From NCBI RefSeq assembly GCF_024752305.1, contig NZ_JANTHX010000004.1, positions 434,001 to 498,000 on the forward strand: a DNA stretch of 64,000 bases, in the 5' to 3' direction. The position numbers were made by a program, and so were the translations under genes. A model generated the notes under the pieces. The model worked only from the letters and a program-made list of their open reading frames with translations, was not told the origin of the DNA and made no database searches. Shown here piece by piece: positions 16,576 to 64,000 of this stretch (positions are counted from its first letter, which is position 1; each line of letters opens with the position of its first letter). Origin of the DNA: Protaetiibacter mangrovi. GTDB lineage: Bacteria; Actinomycetota; Actinomycetes; Actinomycetales; Microbacteriaceae.

Positions 16576-16887
16576 ATGCTCGTCGCGTTCTCCGTCGCCC
16601 CGTCCGGAACGGGGGATGCCGACGGCTCGGTGCACGACGCCGTCGCCGCCGCCGTGCAGATCGTGCGCGAGTCGGGGCTGCCGAACCGCACCACCTCGAT
16701 GTTCACCGAGCTCGAGGGGGAGTGGGACGAGGTCATGGACGTCGTCAAGCGCGCCACGGATGCGGTGGCCGCCTACGGCTCGCGGGTGTCGCTCGTGCTG
16801 AAGGCCGACATCCGCCCCGGGTACTCGGGCGAGCTGGACGGCAAGGTCGAGCGCCTCGAGCGCGCGATCGACGAGCTCGGCTCCTAG
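16576..16887 (+). CDS. MTH1187-family thiamine-binding protein
   Basis: A 103-aa protein of the UPF0045/MTH1187 family, small ferredoxin-like proteins of the same fold as the thiamine-binding YkoF. It begins MLVAFSVAPSG, contains SMFTELEGEWDEVMDVVKRA and VSLVLKADIRPG, and ends with a helix carrying VERLERAIDELG. A GAAAGG ribosome site precedes the ATG. Thiamine binding is inferred from the family; the cellular role is unknown. Its stop is a few bases from the stop of the convergent LuxR-type gene. Confidence 0.8.
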   Translation: MLVAFSVAPSGTGDADGSVHDAVAAAVQIVRESGLPNRTTSMFTELEGEWDEVMDVVKRATDAVAAYGSRVSLVLKADIRPGYSGELDGKVERLERAIDELGS

Positions 16888-16890
16888 CCG

Positions 16891-19716
16891 TCACTCGGCC
16901 GAGCGGCGCGAGACCCAGGCGGCCACCTCGGCGCGTCGCGACATGCCGAGCTTGGCCAGGATGTGCTCGATGTGCGCCGACGCGGTCTTCGGCGAGATCA
17001 CCAGCCGCTCCGCGATCTCGCGATTCGTCGCGCCCGCCGAGACGAGCGCCGCGACCTCGAACTCGCGGGCCGTGAGCGGTCCGGTCGAGCCGGGCGCGTC
17101 GGCGTCCAGCCGCACGGATGCCGCCATCCGCGCCAGCAGGGGAGCGTCGGCCTCCTCGGCGCGGCGCCGCGCCTCCGCGACGAGTCTCGCGGCCTCTCCG
17201 AGCCGCCGGGCGCGGGCCGCACAGCGGGCGAGGTCGAGCTGCGCCTGCACGCCCTCCCACATCCGGCCCCGGGCGAGCCACGCCGCGGCCGCGGACTCGA
17301 GCAGCGGCCGGGCGGTGTTGGTGCGCCCCTCGGCGAGCTGGAGCACCCCCTCGGCGTGGTCGAGCGCGGGCAGGGTGCCGGGGATGCCGCGGTGCCGCAC
17401 GAGCGACCCCGCGCGGTCGAGCCACTCGCGGGCCCCCTCGTGGTCGCGGGCGGCGAGACGGGCGCGCACCCCGGTCAGCACGAACGGGAACAGGTAGGCG
17501 GCGTCGTCGACGGCCGCGGACTCGCGGTACCCGTCCTCCACGAAACCGATCGCGGCATCCGGATCGCCGCCGTGCAGCGCCGCCTCGGCGAGCCCCCAGA
17601 GGGCGGGGCTCACCCGCTGCAGCTCCTCCATCCGCCGTCCGAGTTCGAGGGAACGTCGCAGGTGCTCGCGGGCCAGGTCGAGGCGCCCGCGGGCGAGCTC
17701 CACGTAGCCGAGCACCTTGAGGGCCTCGATCTCGGTGGTGATGCCGTGACCATCCGCCAGCGCGCGCTGCGCGTCGCGCTCCGCGCCGGGGGCACCGGTC
17801 GCCCAGCGCACGTGACCCCGATGGGCGCGCAGATAGTGGTGGTCGTTCCAGCGCTCGGCCGCCGCGGTGAACTCGAGGCCCTCGTCGAGCCAGCGCGTCG
17901 CGATCCCGTACTCGACGAGCACGGATGCGGAGGTCGCGATCATCCGCCGGGCACGCACGGCGGCCGCCTCGTGCTCGGTGCCCGCCTCGCGGATGACGCC
18001 CTCGAGTAGCTCCCAGCCCTCGGTCCGACCCGCGAACACCTGGACCGCTCCGAGGGTCGCCTGCACGTCGAGCCTGGCCGCGGGGTCGGCGTCGCGCTCC
18101 AGGCGGGTGAGCGCCTGCTGGCCGATGTCGATCGAGGCGTCGAGTCGCCGGGCGAGCATGTAGGCGGCCGCCTCGGCGCCGAGCAGGCGGCCCCACGCCG
18201 CGTCGCCGCCACCGCCGGGTGTCGCCTCGAGCCATCCGCGCGCCTCGGCGGCGAGGCCGATCCGCTGGGCGAGGTCGTCGCCGAGCAGGTGCCGCATCGC
18301 CATCAGCGGGGCCACGAGGGCCGCCGCACGGTCGACGTCGCCGACCTCCCGCAGCCGACGGATCGCATCCTCGAAGCGTGTCGCGGCGGCGGAGCTGTCG
18401 TCGATCGCCGCGAGCTCCGCGGCGCTGCAGGCGGTCAGCCGCGCGAGCTCCGCGGGGTCGACGTCGGCGGGCGCGGTGCGCAGCGCGCGGGAGTAGAGAT
18501 CGGCGGCCTCGCGGTGCGCGGAGATGCCGGCGGCCGCGTCGGCCGCGCGGACGGCATGGGGGAAGGCCCGCTCGGGGAGTCCCGCGAGCTCGTACTGCTC
18601 GGAGAGGTAGGAGGCGCGAAGCCCCGCCCGCTCGGATGCCGCGGCGACCGCTTCGTGCAGGCGCCGTCGCCGCGTCACCGGGATCTCCTCGTAGAGGGCG
18701 TCCCGCAGCAGGGCGTGCCGGTAGTCGTACTTCGTCGCCGACAGCCGCTCGAGAAGGTGCTCGTCGCAGAGGTTGCGCAGCCGCTCCTCCAGCTCGTCGT
18801 CGCCGCGACCGCCCAGGATGTCGAGCAGCAGCGGGAACTCGAACGAGCATCCGATCACCGCGGCGGCCTCGGCCACGGTCTGCACCTCGGCGGGCAGCCC
18901 GGATGCGCGCTGCCGCACCGCCTCGGCGATGGTGTCGGGCACGAGGTGGGCGTCGCCGGCGGCGATGAGCTCCTCCACGTACAACGGGATGCCGTTGCTG
19001 CGCGTGAGCAGATCCTCGAGCAGCGCCGCGCTCGGCACCTCGCCGAGCAGCGACTCCGCCAGCCGGGCGGTGCCGTCCGCGTCGAGTGGGGCGAGCGGCG
19101 CCTCCTCGGCGAAGCGCTGGGCAAGCAGGTGGCTGCGCCAGACGGCGAGCGACGACCCCGGGCGCACCTCGTCGCTGCGGTAGGTCGCGACGACGAGTGC
19201 CGGGGCCCGGCGCACGAGGGGCGCGACGCGCTCCAGCACGTCGAGGCTCAACTCGTCCGCCCAGTGGAGGTCCTCGATGCGCAGCAGCGTCGCCTCCCCG
19301 GTCAGCACCTCCAGCACGAGGTCGGCGAGGTCGGCGACCAGGATGCGGTAGCGCCGGGCGGCGTCGCCCGAGGTGTCGTCGGCGCGCACCCGCGTCGCCA
19401 GGGCATCCGCCGGCTCGCCGCGCCCCGACTGGCGCAGGGCACGGGCGAGGTCGAACAGCACGGCGCCTGGGAATTCGGTGTCCTTCGGCCAGGCACGTGT
19501 CGTCAGGGTGGCGACGTCGGGGAGGCGACTGGCGATCTCGTCGAGCATCCGCGACTTGCCGATCCCCGCCTCGCCCGCGACCAGCAGGAACTGGCCGTCG
19601 CCGGCCGCCGCCTCGGCCCAGCGCCGCTCGGCGAGCGCGAGCACGTCGTCGCGGCCGACGAGCTCGGCGCGCACCCGGGCAGGTCGCCGGTCTGCGGTGG
19701 GGGATTCCGCGGTCAC
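16891..19716 (-). CDS. Large LuxR-family ATPase regulator (LAL type)
   Basis: A 941-aa STAND-type transcriptional regulator. The N-terminal AAA-like ATPase has Walker A VAGEAGIGKSRML and a Walker B-like LLRIEDLHWADELSLDVLERV. The middle ~500 residues are helical and TPR-like (AALHGGDPDAAIGFVEDGY and similar). The C-terminus is a LuxR HTH: LTAREFEVAALVSAGATNRE followed by IAERLVISPKTASAHIEHI. Such regulators usually activate a nearby catabolic or secondary-metabolism cluster, but none is present, so the target is unknown. The GTG at 19,714-19,716 lies 7 nt after a TATGCT -10 box on the minus strand, so the mRNA appears leaderless. Confidence 0.88.
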   Translation of the reverse strand: MTAESPTADRRPARVRAELVGRDDVLALAERRWAEAAAGDGQFLLVAGEAGIGKSRMLDEIASRLPDVATLTTRAWPKDTEFPGAVLFDLARALRQSGRGEPADALATRVRADDTSGDAARRYRILVADLADLVLEVLTGEATLLRIEDLHWADELSLDVLERVAPLVRRAPALVVATYRSDEVRPGSSLAVWRSHLLAQRFAEEAPLAPLDADGTARLAESLLGEVPSAALLEDLLTRSNGIPLYVEELIAAGDAHLVPDTIAEAVRQRASGLPAEVQTVAEAAAVIGCSFEFPLLLDILGGRGDDELEERLRNLCDEHLLERLSATKYDYRHALLRDALYEEIPVTRRRRLHEAVAAASERAGLRASYLSEQYELAGLPERAFPHAVRAADAAAGISAHREAADLYSRALRTAPADVDPAELARLTACSAAELAAIDDSSAAATRFEDAIRRLREVGDVDRAAALVAPLMAMRHLLGDDLAQRIGLAAEARGWLEATPGGGGDAAWGRLLGAEAAAYMLARRLDASIDIGQQALTRLERDADPAARLDVQATLGAVQVFAGRTEGWELLEGVIREAGTEHEAAAVRARRMIATSASVLVEYGIATRWLDEGLEFTAAAERWNDHHYLRAHRGHVRWATGAPGAERDAQRALADGHGITTEIEALKVLGYVELARGRLDLAREHLRRSLELGRRMEELQRVSPALWGLAEAALHGGDPDAAIGFVEDGYRESAAVDDAAYLFPFVLTGVRARLAARDHEGAREWLDRAGSLVRHRGIPGTLPALDHAEGVLQLAEGRTNTARPLLESAAAAWLARGRMWEGVQAQLDLARCAARARRLGEAARLVAEARRRAEEADAPLLARMAASVRLDADAPGSTGPLTAREFEVAALVSAGATNREIAERLVISPKTASAHIEHILAKLGMSRRAEVAAWVSRRSAE

Positions 19717-19824
19717 GACGTGAGCATAGGAGCGCTGACGCGCGGGCGACATAGGTCGATCGACCGATGTTGCGGGGAGGTGCGCACGCGGAGCGTGGGG
19801 ACACCGAACGGAAGGAGCGTCCCC

Positions 19825-20073
19825 ATGGCGCGATTCATGGATGTCCACGACGGATTCGTGGGCGTGACCAAGCAGCAGCTTGAGGCGGCCCACGAGGCCG
19901 ACCTGGCGATCGAGGGCGAGGAGGGCGTGCACTTCGAGCGCGCCTGGCTCGACCCCGACTCGGGCAAGGTGTTCTGCCTGTCGACCGGGCCGTCGCGTGA
20001 GGCGGTGATGCGCATCCACGAGCGCGCCGGCCACCCCACCGCCCAGGTCTACGAGCTGCCGATCGAGGTATGA
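19825..20073 (+). CDS. DUF4242 / SCO4226-like small protein
   Basis: An 82-aa protein of the DUF4242 family. It has ARFMDVHDGFVGVTKQQLEA at the N-terminus, then a Cys in GKVFCLSTGPSREAVMRIHE and a conserved HPTAQVYELPIEV end. The Streptomyces relative SCO4226 was described as nickel-binding, but metal binding here is inference. The ATG has a strong GGAAGGAG ribosome site. It overlaps the next small ORF as ATGA. Confidence 0.7.
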   Translation: MARFMDVHDGFVGVTKQQLEAAHEADLAIEGEEGVHFERAWLDPDSGKVFCLSTGPSREAVMRIHERAGHPTAQVYELPIEV

Positions 20074-20216
20074 CCACCTCGGCAGACTGTCGTGCGGAGC
20101 GCCGTCGTCGTCGGCGTGCGCTCCGCACGGAGCGGAGGCTGCGGAGGAATGCGCTGCGCGCCCGTCAGGAACGGCAACAGCTCACGACGCTGCGCTGGTT
20201 CGCGCGCGGCGGGTGA
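20070..20216 (+). CDS. Possible 48-aa arginine-rich protein
   Basis: A short ORF whose ATG overlaps the stop of the DUF4242 gene (ATGA). It encodes 48 residues, about a third of them Arg (CRAERRRRRRALRTERRLRR), ending in TTLRWFARGG. The overlap suggests coupled translation and the composition suggests nucleic-acid binding, but this could also be a chance open frame in GC-rich DNA. Confidence 0.35.
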   Translation: MTTSADCRAERRRRRRALRTERRLRRNALRARQERQQLTTLRWFARGG

Positions 20217-20318
20217 GTGCGTCTGGCTTGTCGGGCATCGCCGGGGACGTATTGACCCTCAATTCCTTGTCGGGAAAGCTACCCCTGATTGATCTTGACC
20301 ATCGGCTGGGGGTAATTG

Positions 20319-22595
20319 GTGACCGAATCGAACTCTGAGACCGGGCCGCAGTTCGAGAAGCGTGTACTGGCACTAGCGCGAGCAATCCATGACCCCCTTG
20401 GCACCCAGGGTGCCGAGATCTACGAGGGCCGAGAGCGCGACTCGGTCTTTACCAATGAAAGCCAGGTTCACGTCTACGAAGTGACGACGCTGCGCACCAA
20501 GGAGAAGGCCGAATACGACGGCCAGAAACTCGTCGACATGATGAAATCTCTCGCGGCGAAGCCGGAGAATCTCTATCGGTCCGTCAATGGCTGGTTTGTT
20601 ACTCGCGAGGAACCGACACCTGAGCAGCGGACCGTGATCCAGGCGTTGGCGAAGAAGAATGCCCTACCTCTGAAGGCAATCAGTGCAAGCACGCTATTGC
20701 AGAGAATCTGCAACTCCGAGCTCTACCTTCAGCAGCGTGACAGTGCGCCCTTTGGGAGTCTCGCGTACGCGCCGGCGGCCAGCGGCGCGGGATTTCGCGT
20801 CGACGTTGACTTCGAGACGATCGGGAATGGTCCGCGAAGCGTGGGCAACGTGTCGGACGCGTTGCTAGGCGGCCGACACATCGTACTAACGGGCGATTTT
20901 GGTGTCGGCAAGAGTCACGGACTCCGCGAGATATACCGATCGCTGCGCCGTGATCACTTCCGCGGGAATAAGCTCACGCGCTTCCCCGTCCATATCAACC
21001 TTCGCGATTGCGTCGGGCTTCGAACCCCGGCGGAAATATTTCGCCGTCATGCGGAGGACATCGGCTTTGTTGAGGAGCGAAGCCTAATTTCCGCTTGGCG
21101 TTCAGGTGGGGTTGTGTTGCTTCTCGACGGATTCGACGAGATCGTCCCGGTTCGTTGGATGGGGAATGCCGCCGATCTCCGGGAGGTCCGCTGGGAGGCG
21201 ATGGCACCGATACGTCGACTCGTTGAAGAGACCCCAGAAGGTACTGGCATCATCATCTGCGGACGACCCAACTATTTCTCGACGAACGACGAGATGAAAG
21301 TTGCTTTGGGGTTCGACTCCCGCGCCGACTCGATCTTCCTCGCGGACTTTGACCACGGCCAGATAGCTGAGTACCTACAGAAGGCAAGCGTGGATTGGCA
21401 GGTACCCGACTGGATACCGGGACGTCCACTCCTCCTCGGGTATCTCGCGAGCATGCATGAGGTGAGTGGCGACTCTGAGGAGATGGATCGTTCGGTCGCC
21501 TGGCGGCAATTGCTGCAGGCGATATGCCAGCGGGAGTCGCGCATGTTTGCGGCGGTTCGTGCCGAGACCATCGAGGCGATCGTTGCGAGAGTTGCGACTC
21601 TGGCGCGGTCTGCCGGAAATGAGATTGGTCCAATCGGGATGGACCTCATGCGGGCAGCATTCATCGCGGTAAACAACAGGCAGCCAGACGAGGAGGGCCT
21701 CCAGCTCTTGCTCCGGCTGCCGGGCCTTTCAGTCGACGGTGGAAGTCCAGACGAATCTCGCGTCTTCGTTGACCTAGACCTCGCTGATACGGCGTACGGG
21801 ATTGATCTCGCCGGATATCTTTCGGCACCACACGCCGAGCACCCGCTCAAGAGCGTGGCGTCCTGGGTTTCCGCTGCAAGCGACCTGGGGGTGGCGGTTG
21901 CAAGCGACGTTGCGACGGAGAACGGTGTCACCGGCGCGGCGGTGCTGGCTGTGGCCAAGACGCGCGACAGTTCCGGACAGTTCGATGCGATTCTTGCTGA
22001 TGTGCTGCGTGTCGCCGAAAAGCAAGGCGTCGACGAAGACCGCCTGAAGCAGGACTACCTCGTAGAGGGCGTCATCTTTGACGAATTGGAGTTGTCCGGT
22101 GAGGAACATGTGCTCGGCTATGTTCGCTTTCAGGACTGCATATTTCACAGCGTCGACCTAAGCGCTGTGGAGCAGGGCGGCAGCTATCCGGTATTCAAGC
22201 GTGGCTTGATTGGGCTCCTCAATGGAGTCACCGCCGTGCCTTCGTGGCTAGAAGACTCGTTCGTCGACGTTGAAATCGAGCGCTTCAGTAGTAGCTCGCA
22301 GACGACATCAGGCATCATGCAACTCAACCTCAGCCCTCTCGACAAGATCGCTCTATCCATCCTCAAAAAAATCTACGGACAAAGAGGCACTGGGCGGAAG
22401 GAGGGAGCGCTTTCGAGAGGGCTTGACTTGAGTCTACGAGAGCAAGTTCCTGGCGTGATATCGGAAATGATTTCAGCGGGCTGGATTCAAAAAAATACAG
22501 CTGGCAAGAGCATCATCTATGTCCCGGTGAAGTCCAGACGGAGCGAGGCGCTGCAGGCACTTGAGGCTCCGGGAGATTTTCGACTTCGGCGGTAA
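20319..22595 (+). CDS. NACHT-domain STAND NTPase, probable antiphage defence protein
   Basis: A 758-aa protein. Residues 1-140 resemble a restriction-endonuclease-like fold, with an acidic position in RERDSVF and VHVYEVTTLRTKEKAEYDG in place of the usual E-x-K, so its nuclease activity is uncertain. A NACHT NTPase follows: Walker A GDFGVGKS (~192-199), Walker B VVLLLDGFDEI (~265-275) and a downstream sensor strand IIICGRPNYF. The C-terminal ~300 residues are unrecognised and end in a winged-helix-like region (~670-745). Bacterial NACHT proteins of this type act as single-gene antiphage sensors and effectors. The GTG at 20,319 follows CTGGGGG. Base and codon use (ATA, TTT, AAA, CTA codons) differ strongly from both neighbours, implying transfer. 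Confidence 0.82.
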   Translation: MTESNSETGPQFEKRVLALARAIHDPLGTQGAEIYEGRERDSVFTNESQVHVYEVTTLRTKEKAEYDGQKLVDMMKSLAAKPENLYRSVNGWFVTREEPTPEQRTVIQALAKKNALPLKAISASTLLQRICNSELYLQQRDSAPFGSLAYAPAASGAGFRVDVDFETIGNGPRSVGNVSDALLGGRHIVLTGDFGVGKSHGLREIYRSLRRDHFRGNKLTRFPVHINLRDCVGLRTPAEIFRRHAEDIGFVEERSLISAWRSGGVVLLLDGFDEIVPVRWMGNAADLREVRWEAMAPIRRLVEETPEGTGIIICGRPNYFSTNDEMKVALGFDSRADSIFLADFDHGQIAEYLQKASVDWQVPDWIPGRPLLLGYLASMHEVSGDSEEMDRSVAWRQLLQAICQRESRMFAAVRAETIEAIVARVATLARSAGNEIGPIGMDLMRAAFIAVNNRQPDEEGLQLLLRLPGLSVDGGSPDESRVFVDLDLADTAYGIDLAGYLSAPHAEHPLKSVASWVSAASDLGVAVASDVATENGVTGAAVLAVAKTRDSSGQFDAILADVLRVAEKQGVDEDRLKQDYLVEGVIFDELELSGEEHVLGYVRFQDCIFHSVDLSAVEQGGSYPVFKRGLIGLLNGVTAVPSWLEDSFVDVEIERFSSSSQTTSGIMQLNLSPLDKIALSILKKIYGQRGTGRKEGALSRGLDLSLREQVPGVISEMISAGWIQKNTAGKSIIYVPVKSRRSEALQALEAPGDFRLRR

Positions 22596-22600
22596 CCGCG

Positions 22601-23242
22601 TCAGACCCAGTCGCCGGTGGCGAGGTACTGCACCTTCTTGGCGATCGACACGGCGTGGTCGGCGAAGCGCTCGTGGTAGCGCGAGGCGAGGGTCGCGTCG
22701 ACGGTGTCGACCGTCTCGCCCTTCCAGGTCTCGCCGAGCACCTTGTCGAACACGGCGAGGTGCAGCGCGTCGACCTTGTCGTCCTCGTTGCGGATGTGCT
22801 CGGCGATCGCCGTGTCCTCGGTCTCGAGCAGCTCGGTGAGCTTGCGGGCGATCTCGACGTCGAGCGCCCCCATCTCGCGGAAGGTCGAGCGCAGGCCCTT
22901 CGGCACGACCTTCTCCGGGAAGCGGTAGCGGGCGAGTTGGGCGATGTGCTCGGCCATGTCGCCCATCCGCTCGAGCGACGCCGAGATCCGCAGGGCGCTC
23001 ACCACGATGCGCAGGTCGCGGGCGACCGGCTGCTGGCGGGCGAGGATCGTGATGGCCAGCTCGTCGAGCTCGGTCGCGAGCGCGTCGATCTTCTGGTCGT
23101 CCTCGATGACCGTCTCGGCGAGCGCGACGTCCGATTCGTTGAACGCGCGCGTGGCGTTGTCGATCGAGTCGGCCACGAGTGTGGAGATCTCGACGAGGCG
23201 CTCCTGCACCTCACGCAGTTCCTGCTGGAACACCTCGCGCAT
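22601..23242 (-). CDS. phoU: Phosphate transport regulator PhoU
   Basis: A 213-aa all-helical protein of two PhoU repeats. Each carries the metal-binding-type sequence, for example ASLERMGDMAEHIAQLARY in the first and SRYHERFADHAVSIAKKVQY in the second. PhoU links the Pst transporter to the SenX3/RegX3 signalling pair and restrains the response when phosphate is plentiful. It is divergent from senX3. Its stop is 5 nt from the stop of the NACHT gene, so that islet was inserted immediately beside phoU. Confidence 0.96.
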   Translation of the reverse strand: MREVFQQELREVQERLVEISTLVADSIDNATRAFNESDVALAETVIEDDQKIDALATELDELAITILARQQPVARDLRIVVSALRISASLERMGDMAEHIAQLARYRFPEKVVPKGLRSTFREMGALDVEIARKLTELLETEDTAIAEHIRNEDDKVDALHLAVFDKVLGETWKGETVDTVDATLASRYHERFADHAVSIAKKVQYLATGDWV

Positions 23243-59864: not shown

Positions 59865-59936
59865 GCCTCTGTAGCTCAATGGAAGAGCAGTTCCGTCCTA
59901 AGGAAAGGGTTGGGGGTTCGAGTCCCTCCAGGGGCA
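59865..59936 (+). tRNA. tRNA-Arg (anticodon CCT)
   Basis: Acceptor arms GCCTCTG and CAGGGGC, D-arm GCTCAATGGAAGAGC, anticodon loop GTCCTAA (anticodon CCT), and T-arm GGGGG-TTCGAGT-CCCTC. The discriminator is A; CCA is not encoded. A TAGACT -10 box lies at 59,849-59,854. The foreign-looking island begins right after this gene, consistent with its use as an integration site. Confidence 0.94.
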
Positions 59937-59949
59937 CCCCTAGGGGCAC
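59930..59949 (+). other. Possible attachment-site remnant at tRNA-Arg 3' end
   Basis: The 3' end of the tRNA with the next base, AGGGGCAC (59,930-59,937), is repeated at 59,942-59,949, and the join forms the palindrome CCCCTAGGGG (59,937-59,946). A short duplication of a tRNA tail next to foreign genes can mark a recombination site, but eight bases is weak and no integrase lies in the window. Confidence 0.3.
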
Positions 59950-59968
59950 ATTGTCTAGCCCCAACTGG

Positions 59969-59995
59969 AGATCCCTTTGATTGCGGGGATCTTTC
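59969..59995 (+). terminator. Terminator hairpin after tRNA-Arg
   Basis: AGATCCC at 59,969-59,975 pairs with GGGATCT at 59,986-59,992 and is followed by TTCATCAT. It is a plausible end for the tRNA transcript. The rest of 59,996-60,083 shows nothing recognised. Confidence 0.5.
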
Positions 59996-60083
59996 ATCAT
60001 TCGCAGGTTGGGGTTCGTGCCGCTCTCGGCCACCACGTCTGCCGCCTGGTCACACCTGGGCGGACGAAGCTCTGCGCGTGAAA

Positions 60084-60110
60084 CCACATGTGCGATACTC
60101 GCACATGTGG
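60084..60110. promoter_or_regulatory. Perfect 12-bp palindromic operator over the XRE-gene start
   Basis: CCACATGTGCGA-TAC-TCGCACATGTGG is a perfect inverted repeat. Each arm contains the 8-bp palindrome CACATGTG. It covers a GATACT -10 box (60,094-60,099) and includes the GTG start (60,107-60,109), so a bound protein would block both transcription and the leaderless start. Autoregulation by the XRE protein is the obvious reading. Confidence 0.75.
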
Positions 60111-61222
60111 CTCAACTGGACCTGGTGGCACTCGGCCAACGCATCCGACAAGCGCGTGAGCGATCTGGGCTCAGCCAGGCGGAACTTGCCGGTGAGATCG
60201 GGCTCGACCGTACCGTCGTTACGAAGATCGAGAGCGGCACTCGTGGAGTGAGCGCGATTGAACTCTCCGACATCGCCGCTGCGCTTCAGACCCGAATGTC
60301 GTCCTTCTTTGAAGAACCGGTGCCAGCGCTAGTCTCTCACCGCGCTAGCCAAGGGGTTGATGTGGTTGATTCTCGGATCGACCGCTTGATTGCCAAACTT
60401 GCGGAGGACGTGGAGTTCCTAATTGAACTGGCGCCGGACGTTCTTCAGGCGACCGCGCAGGAGACCGAGCCGCGACCCAACAACCGCGCCGAAGCCGAAC
60501 AACTTGCTCATCGAGCGAGAGGCCTGCTTGGCCTCACGCCAACCGAACCGGTGCGTGAGCTCGGCGCGGCGCTCGAGCCCCTTGGCCTCCTCGTCTTCGG
60601 GTTCGACCTGGGCCCCGACACGGCCGACGCCGGCACAATCCTCCTGCGTGCAGGAGGAGTCGGTTTGGTAAACAGTCACATGAAGGTCGGTCGACGGAGG
60701 CTTGCAGCGGCTCATGAACTTGGCCACTATTTGGTCGCTGACGATTACTCGATCGACTGGCGCGTTTCGACCGAGCATGCTGGCATAGAGGCACTACTTG
60801 ACGACTTCGCGCGGGAACTCCTGCTCCCGCGCGAGGCATTGAATGACCGATGGTCGTCTCGCGTGGAGCGTCATGGACTACGCGCCGCGACTGTCATGAC
60901 GGCAAGCGAGTACCGGGTGGATATGGCGACACTTGCCCGAAAGCTTCGGGAGTGCGAACTGATCCAGGGAGACGAGGCAGGTCAGATCCGCGGCACATCC
61001 ACCACGGCGCTCGACATTGTCGAGCATGGCCTGGTCGTTGCGGAGGAATTTGCCGCCACCACTCTCCCGCGCGTTTACCAGCTAGCGATCTTGCGTCTCG
61101 TGCGCGACGAGAAGCTCAGCCGCGAACGCGCTCTGGAGATGCTTCATAACACCCATATGGACGCCGACTTGCCACTACCGCGAGCCCGTCGAGAAGACGA
61201 AATCTGGAACTTCGTTTCGTGA
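60107..61222 (+). CDS. XRE-family regulator fused to ImmA/IrrE metallopeptidase
   Basis: A 371-aa protein. The N-terminal XRE helix-turn-helix is LGQRIRQARERSGLSQAELA and following (residues ~7-60). A middle region without a recognised fold leads to an ImmA/IrrE-type domain with the zinc-peptidase motif HELGH at about residue 201 (RRLAAAHELGHYLVADD) and a downstream Glu in FARELLLPRE. In phage and mobile elements such proteins relieve repression by cleaving a repressor, or act as toxin-antitoxin regulators. The GTG is 7 nt from a -10 box (leaderless) and lies in a perfect palindrome. The PIN-like gene overlaps its stop (GTGA). Codon use is less GC-biased than in the chromosome core. Confidence 0.88.
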   Translation: MAQLDLVALGQRIRQARERSGLSQAELAGEIGLDRTVVTKIESGTRGVSAIELSDIAAALQTRMSSFFEEPVPALVSHRASQGVDVVDSRIDRLIAKLAEDVEFLIELAPDVLQATAQETEPRPNNRAEAEQLAHRARGLLGLTPTEPVRELGAALEPLGLLVFGFDLGPDTADAGTILLRAGGVGLVNSHMKVGRRRLAAAHELGHYLVADDYSIDWRVSTEHAGIEALLDDFARELLLPREALNDRWSSRVERHGLRAATVMTASEYRVDMATLARKLRECELIQGDEAGQIRGTSTTALDIVEHGLVVAEEFAATTLPRVYQLAILRLVRDEKLSRERALEMLHNTHMDADLPLPRARREDEIWNFVS

Positions 61223-61764
61223 CCGACTGGGTCGATCCTCTCGTGTTTGACACGGGACCGATGCGACACTTTGCCCTCCAGGGGTGGCTCGGCGTATTGA
61301 AGTTTCTCGCGGGCGATCGAACGGTTGTTGTCCCGGAGAGCGTGGAAGTCGAGCTGCGGATGCAGGCACACGAGCGTCCAGCACTACATGCCGTACTGGA
61401 CGCCGACTGGATCCACGTCGACAGGAGTGCCGACGTGGATGTGTTGGTCGCCTTCAGCAGGTATGAGGGTCGTCTTGCTGTTGGGGAAACGAATCGTGGA
61501 GAGTGTGGGGTCCTCGCGTTGGGGGCCGTTCGAGGCTTTGAACTCGTAATCGATGACTCGGTCCCGAGACAGATCGCGATCGACGAAGGCCTTCGAGTCA
61601 CCGCCACCCTTCCACTTCTTTGTCAGGCTATCCGGGCGGAACAACTCACGGTCCAAGTTGTCGAAAGCATCGCGGACGACCTGCTTTCTGGAAAGTACTA
61701 CCTTCCTTTCCAGGCTGGAGGGTTTCGAGCCTGGGCGTTGGAGCAGGGACTGGTGGACTACTAG
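61219..61764 (+). CDS. PIN-like domain protein (toxin-type nuclease)
   Basis: A 181-aa protein resembling PIN/DUF3368 nucleases. The first conserved Asp is in LVFDTGPMRHF near residue 11. A middle acidic group lies in AVGETNRGECGVLALG (~90-104), and FELVIDDSVPRQIAIDEGL provides the C-terminal Asp pair. PIN proteins cut RNA and often serve as toxins. The GTG overlaps the stop of the XRE-peptidase gene, so the pair is one translation unit. That suggests a two-gene system in which the peptidase partner controls the nuclease. Confidence 0.72.
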   Translation: MTDWVDPLVFDTGPMRHFALQGWLGVLKFLAGDRTVVVPESVEVELRMQAHERPALHAVLDADWIHVDRSADVDVLVAFSRYEGRLAVGETNRGECGVLALGAVRGFELVIDDSVPRQIAIDEGLRVTATLPLLCQAIRAEQLTVQVVESIADDLLSGKYYLPFQAGGFRAWALEQGLVDY

Positions 61765-61787
61765 TTGGGCAGCGAGCTAGTTGGGCA
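61761..61787. repeat. 11-bp direct repeat after the PIN-like gene
   Basis: CTAGTTGGGCA occurs at 61,761-61,771 (containing the PIN gene stop) and again at 61,777-61,787 (containing, on the other strand, the stop of a coding remnant). A tight direct duplication here may be a recombination or deletion footprint. Confidence 0.45.
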
Positions 61788-61905
61788 ACAAGAGAGTCTC
61801 GGCGGGATGCCAACGAGCGCTTCGCCGTAGGTGGGCGAAAGTGTCGGCGCAGTCGACCAGGACGTAGCCGTCCCCCCGCCGGAACTCGGAGCGACGGAAG
61901 GTCGC
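61777..61905 (-). pseudogene. Possible coding remnant (C-terminal fragment)
   Basis: In one minus-strand frame, 42 codons between two stops encode FRRSEFRRGDGYVLVDCADT followed by FAHLRRSARWHPAETLLLPN. The composition is protein-like, but there is no start codon and the upstream frame is closed at 61,906-61,908 (TAA). It may be the tail of a gene truncated when the island was rearranged. The surrounding 61,765-61,960 has no other gene. It could also be chance. Confidence 0.3.
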
Positions 61906-61960
61906 TTATCCCAGCATCAGTACCACGGGTGCCGCACGCCCGATCTCCTCACGACGGCCC

Positions 61961-64000
61961 TTAGCGAAAGACCTCATCCAAGCTGTAGGAGAGGTTGTGA
62001 GCGGACCCCCAACCGACGTCCACAAACGTGTCGAGGGTCCCAAGGAAGTGTGCAAGCACGATTGGATCGGTCCGAAGCAGGTCTCGTTGCTCGGCGACAA
62101 AGCGTCGTAGGACGGACATCACGAGATCGAGCCCCATTGAGTCGAACTCGTAGCCGCCCACCCGTCCTGCATCTACCGCAGCAGCGACGAGTCGCAACAC
62201 GGATCGAGGGTCGGACTCGAAGCCGTATGCGAGCACAGCGATCGTGTGGTGGGTGGTGCTCGGGGCGGTAGCGCCTGCTAGAGCCTCGAGCAAGGAGCCG
62301 TACAGCCGAAGAACATCGCGCGGATTGGCGCGCGGGCTCGGTTCTTCCTCTTTCCGGTTGTACGCGCCGCATGAGAAATAAAGTTGGTTGCTGACGGCGT
62401 CCACGTGCTGAAGTAGCCGACGGTAGCGCTTCCGAGCTGAGTCGGTCGCCAGACGTCCCTCGAACCGTGCCCGCAATCTGGCTAGTTCTGCTGAACTCCG
62501 CTCCACCACCGTTGTCGATATTTCTACTGCGCGAGTCAGGGCCGCGACGTTGCGCTCGGTGTGAGGTGCTGGCGTGAGAGGCTCGCGCAGTATGTGGATG
62601 ACTGCCGTAATCAGGTTGGACCGGGCGGGTATCGCTGAGAGCAGCCTGTCTATATCGGAGCGCGCGCCCGGGTCGCCGTCCCATATGTCGAGGATTGCCA
62701 GCTTCCGCACACACGATTCGCGCAGTTGTTTGCCGCGCGACCCCAACTGCTGAGCTCGCACCAGCGTCTCGCGAAGGTTCTGAAGCAAGCCGTTGCGATC
62801 GCTGAATCTCTTGGCCCTAAAGACCACTCTCAAGATGGCGTCCAGCACTGCGGCCGAGGGCTCTACTCTCAGTCGTGCCTGCAGGATGGATAGTGCGAGC
62901 GGGCGTCGATCCGCGAGTATCCATGGCAGGTACTGGAACGCCTGGCGACGTACCTCGACCTCCGGAGCCGAGCACAGCAGGGTGACTTGTGCTTCAACCT
63001 CTGGCGTGGATATGCCGTAGTGAAGCAGTCCGAAGACGGCTTGGACCGCGGTGATCCGAGGGTTCCCGCCTGCCCAGTATTCGGAGTTGTCGAAGGACTC
63101 GACTTCGCGAGGGTGAGACACAGGAATTGCGAGAGACTGCAGCACCGCATCCACGAGAAGCCGTTGTGTGTCTGGATCGGTGTCGGCGATCCACTCCGCT
63201 CGCGAGGCTGCCGCGGCAAATGCCGCCGCGCTGTTCCACGCCTTCCGTCTGACCTCGTCGGCACCGTTAGTCGTTAGCTGCGATAGGTCTGCAACGAGTC
63301 GGTCGAGTGCCTGGATTCTCGAGTCGAACGTTTCGCGGTCAAGAACCGGAGGCAGATCTCGTTCAAGATTGCGTGCCTGTCCGAGCAGCGATCGTATGTG
63401 AGGGTCGTCGGTATCGACGCCGGCCTCGCGGAGGTCTGAGTCGGAATCGTCGGGGCTGGGATCGAAATCCCAAGCCCGGACGAATGGCCGTTGCGAGGGC
63501 GCTTGTTCGACTTCGGGGCTGAGACGCCGTTCGCGAGCCTCTTCTGTCGCGAACGCTTCCGGTGTGAACCTGGCAAGTAGTTGATCTGCGACACGGGATT
63601 GTCTTTCGTCGTTGGTCATCCCGATGATCGTTCGTTCGATCGCGACTCGATCGGCGGTTGTCGCGGAGGCGTGCAACTCGACGAGCGACTCGCCGATCTC
63701 GAACGACAACTCTCCGGACCCGAGACAATCGGCGTTGGTCAAGATCGGCATCAGGGCATGGGCAACATCCTGGGTCCGCGGTACCGCTTGGATCAGAGCC
63801 ATCCACACGCCGGCGTGAACGCTTTGGCCGGTCAGCTCGTCGATCACGCCGACCGCGACGCGGGGGGACTGAGATCGCATCCAGGACCGCAGGTGGGCAA
63901 GGATCTGGAAGGGGACCTCGTGCCCGTCGTCCAGGTCGATGAAGTAGCTGCCGTCACGGATCACGGTGCCACCAGCGGTTGAGAGCTCAATGGGGTCTCG
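61961..64000 (-). CDS. Large helical-repeat protein, 3' part only
   Basis: The frame is open to the right edge of the window, so at least 679 residues of the C-terminal part are present and the start lies outside. The first GTG seen, at 63,964, sits inside a continuous sequence (IELSTAGGTVIRDGSYFIDL) and is unlikely to be the true start. The protein is soluble and almost entirely helical, with HEAT-like stretches (VEAQVTLLCSAPEVEVRRQA, LALSILQARLRVEPSAAVLD) and an Asp/Ser-rich linker around SPDDSDSDLREAGVDTDDPH. No catalytic motif is visible. Codon use matches the XRE/PIN genes, not the core. The position in the island suggests a defence or mobile-element role; a STAND-type NTPase would carry its ATPase upstream, outside this window. 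Confidence 0.7.
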   Translation of the reverse strand, partial: RDPIELSTAGGTVIRDGSYFIDLDDGHEVPFQILAHLRSWMRSQSPRVAVGVIDELTGQSVHAGVWMALIQAVPRTQDVAHALMPILTNADCLGSGELSFEIGESLVELHASATTADRVAIERTIIGMTNDERQSRVADQLLARFTPEAFATEEARERRLSPEVEQAPSQRPFVRAWDFDPSPDDSDSDLREAGVDTDDPHIRSLLGQARNLERDLPPVLDRETFDSRIQALDRLVADLSQLTTNGADEVRRKAWNSAAAFAAAASRAEWIADTDPDTQRLLVDAVLQSLAIPVSHPREVESFDNSEYWAGGNPRITAVQAVFGLLHYGISTPEVEAQVTLLCSAPEVEVRRQAFQYLPWILADRRPLALSILQARLRVEPSAAVLDAILRVVFRAKRFSDRNGLLQNLRETLVRAQQLGSRGKQLRESCVRKLAILDIWDGDPGARSDIDRLLSAIPARSNLITAVIHILREPLTPAPHTERNVAALTRAVEISTTVVERSSAELARLRARFEGRLATDSARKRYRRLLQHVDAVSNQLYFSCGAYNRKEEEPSPRANPRDVLRLYGSLLEALAGATAPSTTHHTIAVLAYGFESDPRSVLRLVAAAVDAGRVGGYEFDSMGLDLVMSVLRRFVAEQRDLLRTDPIVLAHFLGTLDTFVDVGWGSAHNLSYSLDEVFR

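Follow-up and report, generated by a model that had tools for sequence, protein, structure and literature searches.

The window analysed here is a stretch of 64,000 nucleotides from Protaetiibacter mangrovi (assembly GCF_024752305.1, contig NZ_JANTHX010000004.1, positions 434,001 to 498,000), and the gene of interest is a NACHT/STAND gene on its forward strand at 20319..22595, encoding a protein of 758 amino acids from a GTG start (an alternative TTG start lies at 20316). Its end is separated by 5 nt from the stop codon of phoU (22601-22603), a gene read from the other strand. An earlier note had described a transferred NACHT defence gene at this position, set off by a sharp change of base and codon use at both borders, and its open reading frame (ORF), Walker motifs, distance from phoU and low-GC segment were all recovered here. 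In a two-state base-composition fit with a single segment, the low-GC segment of maximum likelihood spans 20246..22650 (no strand), with a GC content of 0.586 inside and 0.733 outside and a log-likelihood gain of 85. The GC content at third codon positions (GC3) of the gene is 0.674, against 0.93–0.98 for nine named neighbours; other ORFs in the window have low GC3 too, chiefly at 60–64 kb (0.65–0.70). As the note had said, no transposase or integrase was noticed among the ORFs at 15–28 kb, which were judged by eye; the names of neighbouring genes (LuxR-type, DUF4242-like and the like) were also assigned by eye. A search for repeats at the borders of the gene found none, a promoter scan detected no promoter, and five terminator-like sites were found, none of them located at the end of the gene.

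The central part of the protein is an NLR-type NACHT module (residues about 126–576; 20694..22046, + strand), recognised from Pfam NACHT, a structure model and structural comparison. It carries a Walker A motif, GDFGVGKS, at residues 192–199 (20892..20915) and a Walker B motif, LLLDGFDE, at residues 267–274 (21117..21140), so that the marks of the NACHT clade, a GxxGxGKS P-loop, an hhhhDGxDE Walker B motif and downstream arginine and proline motifs, are all present. In the alignment of 84 family proteins K198, D270, E274 and R316 are kept in every member and P370 in 82. The window protein itself scores 25.8 bits against Pfam NACHT (E = 1.1e-5), 0.9 bits short of the curated cut-off of 26.7, and the same model is matched at E ≤ 1e-3 by 58 of the 65 family members scanned (best 7.9e-12). 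Its predicted structure over residues ~126–576 shows the succession of nucleotide-binding domain (NBD), helical domain 1 (HD1), winged-helix domain (WHD) and helical domain 2 (HD2), and in this fold it resembles the animal NLRs NLRC4, NLRP3 and NOD2, from which it differs in its front and back domains and with which it shares 10–15% identity. These results uphold the NACHT core claimed earlier. Pfam found no leucine-rich repeat (LRR) in the window protein. A full-length family profile matched no PDB sequence at E ≤ 0.01, and the four rows returned for the window protein alone (E 0.12 and worse) look like chance.

The N-terminal region (residues 9–130; 20343..20708, + strand) forms a domain of the restriction-endonuclease (REase) type related to Mrr, as the earlier note had supposed. 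Profile-profile alignment with hhalign of 66 family N-termini against 11 Mrr-type domains gave a probability of 82% (E = 1.1e-5, 106 columns), compared with 0.2% for the C-terminal profile used as control, and Pfam Mrr_cat (PF04471) is matched by four of the 66 members (best 2.6e-5); Card1_endonuc is matched by four as well (best 0.0012). In the model a helix (9–24) is followed by strands at 33–35, 38–40, 43–45 and 49–56, a helix (61–80) and a strand (88–95), which is the order of the REase core; the alpha-beta-beta-beta-alpha-beta arrangement is here read from that order and the Mrr profile match, not from a comparison of the isolated domain with solved structures. The 11 Mrr-type domains were found through the model of NA-iREase1 (PF22722, NACHT-associated inactive REase 1) and picked by eye, so the hhalign and Pfam results do not count as two independent lines of evidence. 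That model matched in 67 of the 296 genomes searched, and the 11 loci kept by eye out of 30 fetched all have the Mrr-type aspartate and x-K, from which it follows that PF22722 cross-hits Mrr; the 30 loci yielded no purer NA-iREase1 reference set. At E ≤ 1 the 66 N-termini touched 43 Pfam families, and many of the 25 families listed are unrelated ones, each touched by a single member.

The alignment places D41 (20439-20441) on the Mrr aspartate and E54-x-T56 (20478-20480 and 20484-20486) on the Mrr Q-x-K, so that the lysine retained by all the aligned Mrr-type domains is replaced in the family by threonine or serine. Conservation is high at E13 (80 of 84), D41 (82), E54 (83), Thr/Ser at position 56 (83), K63 (82; 20505-20507), D67 (78) and K70 (76), all on the + strand; at D41 the two exceptions are L035, which is truncated, and L084, whose start is unreliable. 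K63 lies nine residues past E54, where, in the model, the helix after the E-x-T strand makes its first turn. D41, E54 and K63 are near-invariant in both clades of the family, the second of which is only about 21–27% identical to the window protein. The earlier note had taken the change from E-x-K to E-x-T as a sign that the domain may be no standard nuclease. The change itself is present (E54-V-T56), but it is not by itself an argument against a nuclease, because it is a family rule accompanied by a conserved downstream lysine. One member (L064:9686-11920) has E13, G37, E54, T56 and K63 all replaced, its NACHT motifs being retained, which suggests that the five work together in a single site, although at 13% identity its N-terminus aligns less surely; judged by its sequence, it may represent a naturally occurring form with a dead effector. 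A 548-aa ORF from a genome of the same taxonomic order (L002:808-2454), matching the window protein in the nucleoside triphosphatase (NTPase) part alone, also starts with D...hhIEVTT...K, like the E-x-T head.

The earlier note had viewed the C-terminal half as a single new type of sensor ending in a winged helix. The terminal winged helix holds, mainly on the model and weak family matches; the single sensor does not, since residues up to about 576 fit the NLR module from NBD to HD2 and are followed by two further parts. One is a pentapeptide-like beta region (residues about 580–660; 22056..22298, + strand), recognised from profile matches, conservation and the model, which is variable in the family and is a candidate sensor. 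The other is a winged-helix-like domain (residues about 663–749; 22305..22565, + strand) with conserved K684, R693 and G701, among the better-conserved parts of the protein. HalA and Qnr appear among the pentapeptide matches of the beta region and were taken to share the repeat type only.

A scan of 84,980 species, one genome per species, found 115 stretches encoding relatives, of which 80 were kept. Duplicates (L001, L091, L098), NTPase-only matches (L002, L100) and ORFs of less than 700 aa, among them three split copies (L044, L046, L087), were removed ahead of the family counts given here. The nearest relatives, from Streptomyces, Actinomadura and Microbacterium, are 50–55% identical. Closer to home the gene is sporadic: 59 related genomes gave one match only, weak and confined to the NTPase, and none came from a set of 395 genomes sampled from the phylum, a few of which are also among the 59. 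Full-length copies are carried by Pseudomonas phage Haddon (CDS0030; one of 50,697 phage records) and by an Erwinia plasmid (one of 72,556 plasmid records), and long matches occur in eight viral contigs, some of them mutual near-copies. Among the neighbours in five of these contigs are terminase (L006, L094), tail (L006) and endolysin (L005) genes, whereas L093 and L097 show a DNA-polymerase family only. The Erwinia gene has no DNA-level match in E. coli genomes. In PHROGs, the NTPase part of the Haddon protein (6.3e-6) and that of the window protein (0.0099) are matched by phrog_18297, a family of unknown function.

Where a genome locus includes 6 kb or more of flank, as 72 do, the gene has less GC than its surroundings in 71 cases, by a mean of 13.4 points, while the 257 other long ORFs of these loci lie 3.3 points above on average; in GC-rich DNA this control is biased upward. 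A quick tree was made of 84 rows, of which 82 are different and 12 lack a phylum label. It splits deeply into groups of 40 and 44 rows, and the window copy belongs to a set of 11 that are all actinobacterial (100*). The phylum labels change 16 times on this tree, against a minimum of 11 and a shuffled mean of 33.9, which indicates that the gene has mostly been inherited within phyla and has also been transferred from one phylum to another. The split copies in L044, L046 and L087 each consist of two overlapping ORFs, and are either decayed genes or sequencing errors. Cellulomonas sp. HZM (L018 / L019) has two identical protein copies about 30 kb apart on one contig, in opposite orientation.

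Orthologues at the same phoU locus with normal codon use, which the earlier note had named as the finding that would speak against transfer, are not seen in eight other genomes of the genus. In all eight same-genus genomes phoU (22601..23242 in the window, - strand) is present, with PhoR, RegX and CarD beside it, and all eight lack an orthologue of the NACHT gene. On the opposite flank of phoU, two of them (L113 and L117) have an almost empty site, where phoU is separated from a conserved small gene by about 140 and 82 bp; the rest have differing genes there, including, on the phoU side, a pair read by eye as a ribbon-helix-helix (RHH) antitoxin and a PIN (VapC-type) toxin (L115:5803-6504) and a low-GC ORF (62% versus 73%), perhaps HEPN-like by eye (L119:7902-8915), whose product has no match among PDB sequences at E ≤ 1. 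In the window the interval extends over about 5.7 kb (16887-22601) and holds a LuxR-type gene and a small ORF, both of high GC, and then the low-GC NACHT gene; the small ORF (82 aa) next to the latter is also missing from the eight genus-mates. Since the genus-mates differ at this spot and the NACHT gene is low in GC, phoU borders a variable site of which the NACHT gene is the clearly foreign part.

The simplest explanation of these results, to which we give a probability of about 0.6, is that the gene was acquired horizontally and is a one-gene antiphage system, encoding an NLR-like protein with an Mrr-type nuclease in which Thr/Ser replaces the lysine of E-x-K. The transferred NACHT defence gene of the earlier note is supported, with antiphage activity as its probable function. 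At rest, the nucleotide-bound NACHT module would hold the protein in a closed state. A component or a process of the phage would be sensed by the variable beta region, to which the winged helix perhaps contributes, and oligomerisation dependent on ATP would then gather the Mrr-type N-terminal domains, which would cut DNA and so stop the phage and probably the host. The part of the E-x-K lysine would most likely be taken by K63, which lies in the opening turn of the following helix. Of this account, the order of domains, the predicted NACHT fold, the conservation, the mobility and the carriage by phages come from the analysis itself, and sensing, oligomerisation, DNA cleavage and defence are inferred. 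It is tempting to go further, and to suggest a widespread group of NACHT-linked endonucleases with a rewired site, D-(x12)-E-x-[T/S]-(x6)-K, its lysine shifted from the strand to the first turn of the helix after it, so that some "inactive" REases attached to NACHT would be active and set off by NLR-like assembly; on this wider proposal our judgement is close to evenly divided, leaning slightly against.

Several results weigh against an active nuclease in a defence protein. The window copy's N-terminus matched no Pfam family; NA-iREase1 is touched by eight of the 66 members and then weakly (best E 0.016), and the four tektins returned for the N-terminal profile among PDB sequences (E 0.24 and worse) were taken as chance. 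D41 and E54 are present without the lysine of the D and (D/E)-x-K pattern, which lowers the case for a standard PD-(D/E)XK enzyme, not the case for a domain that works as a nuclease. Six of 65 members match nSTAND3 as well. The structural comparison scarcely covered residues outside 128–576, those of 1–125 included, so that the absence of structural matches there says nothing. PADLOC-DB 2.0.0 gave no good match for the three members scanned (best E 0.0031, partial). The neighbourhood speaks neither for nor against: a random 147 of 415 near genes and 134 of 361 far genes, compared with PADLOC, gave matches to 65 and 72 families respectively, the ORF caller being crude in GC-rich DNA. Among the matches listed, near genes include restriction-modification (R-M), HerA and AbiEi types, one protein each, and far genes kinase-type models in three proteins.

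The N-terminal domain might accordingly be a catalytically dead REase acting as DNA binder, adaptor or decoy, any protection then arising from a replication block or a recruited effector. The Thr/Ser of nearly every member favours this, as does NA-iREase1, weak as it is, in being the most frequent Pfam match among the N-termini, and inactive enzyme domains are known in NTPase-linked conflict systems, in the portion of that source consulted (PMC7159879). A dead domain would hardly need D41, E54 and K63 near-invariant across two such divergent clades, however, and the joint loss of several signature residues in L064 speaks the same way. In BamHI and BglII, moreover, E or Q occupies the position of that lysine. 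On balance a dead domain seems rather unlikely. Far less probable is a STAND-type transcription regulator without a defence role, its winged helix bound to promoters by a logic like that of MalT: the conservation of the winged-helix-like domain and a GntR match in one of 65 members (6.6e-5) point that way, but the sporadic occurrence, foreign composition, phage and plasmid copies and REase-type N-terminus do not. We consider it just as improbable that the gene serves only its carrier element, by prophage superinfection exclusion, and is merely stranded at phoU; the phage, viral-contig and plasmid copies and the lack of any mobile-element gene noticed by eye at the locus fit that idea, which also overlaps with an antiphage protein because exclusion is antiphage defence, but the window copy has all its domains intact and its invariant motifs retained.

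Antiphage proteins that join a REase head to NACHT or STAND are already known as a type. The closest in function are bNACHT25 and bNACHT32 (clade 6), which, in the portion of the source available, are single proteins with an N-terminal PD-(D/E)XK-type domain, a central NACHT and a C-terminal sensor; their N-terminal DNase is required for defence, and DNA is degraded upon infection (PMC12169576). The window protein has the same layout by domain order, with the roles of its effector and sensor parts conjectural. Compared by description only, bNACHT25/32 have an NCH1 helical domain, whereas the window family has the beta region, the winged helix and E-x-T/S with a downstream lysine. STAND proteins headed by Mrr_cat or BpuSI_N, which join an Mrr-type nuclease to a STAND NTPase and a C-terminal sensing part, occupy a defence hotspot of P4-like satellites, according to the part of PMC9122126 consulted; again by description only, they differ in carrying C-terminal repeats. 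Avs and other STAND antiphage proteins (for example EfAvs5) are also among the closest known systems, and DefensePredictor, as far as its description was available, reports validated systems that contain PD-(D/E)XK domains and ones that contain NACHT domains (PMC13092281). Pfam NA-iREase1 and Mrr_cat are the REase-type families most akin to the N-terminus, and, judged from sequence, the label "inactive" of the former is a poor fit to the conserved D, E and K of the window family. No description of this NACHT family was found in the literature searched; one may stand in the main bNACHT paper (Cell 2023), which lay outside the search.

The odd and strongly kept active-site pattern of the family poses a testable question, whether a REase domain without the classical lysine is dead or rewired; if rewired, domains now called inactive in immune NTPases need re-reading. 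The system is also single-gene, NLR-like and broadly scattered, with phage-borne copies, and its beta region offers a compact candidate sensor unlike LRR, tetratricopeptide (TPR) or WD40 repeats.

Elsewhere in the window a second low-GC stretch (59865-64000; about 60%) starts just after tRNA-Arg(cct) and looks like a tRNA-borne accessory island. It contains an ORF named by eye as XRE-type helix-turn-helix plus ImmA/IrrE-like peptidase (59981-61222), overlapped by a small ORF, PIN-like by eye (61219-61764), and, on the strand opposite to these two, a 667-aa ORF (61961-63964).
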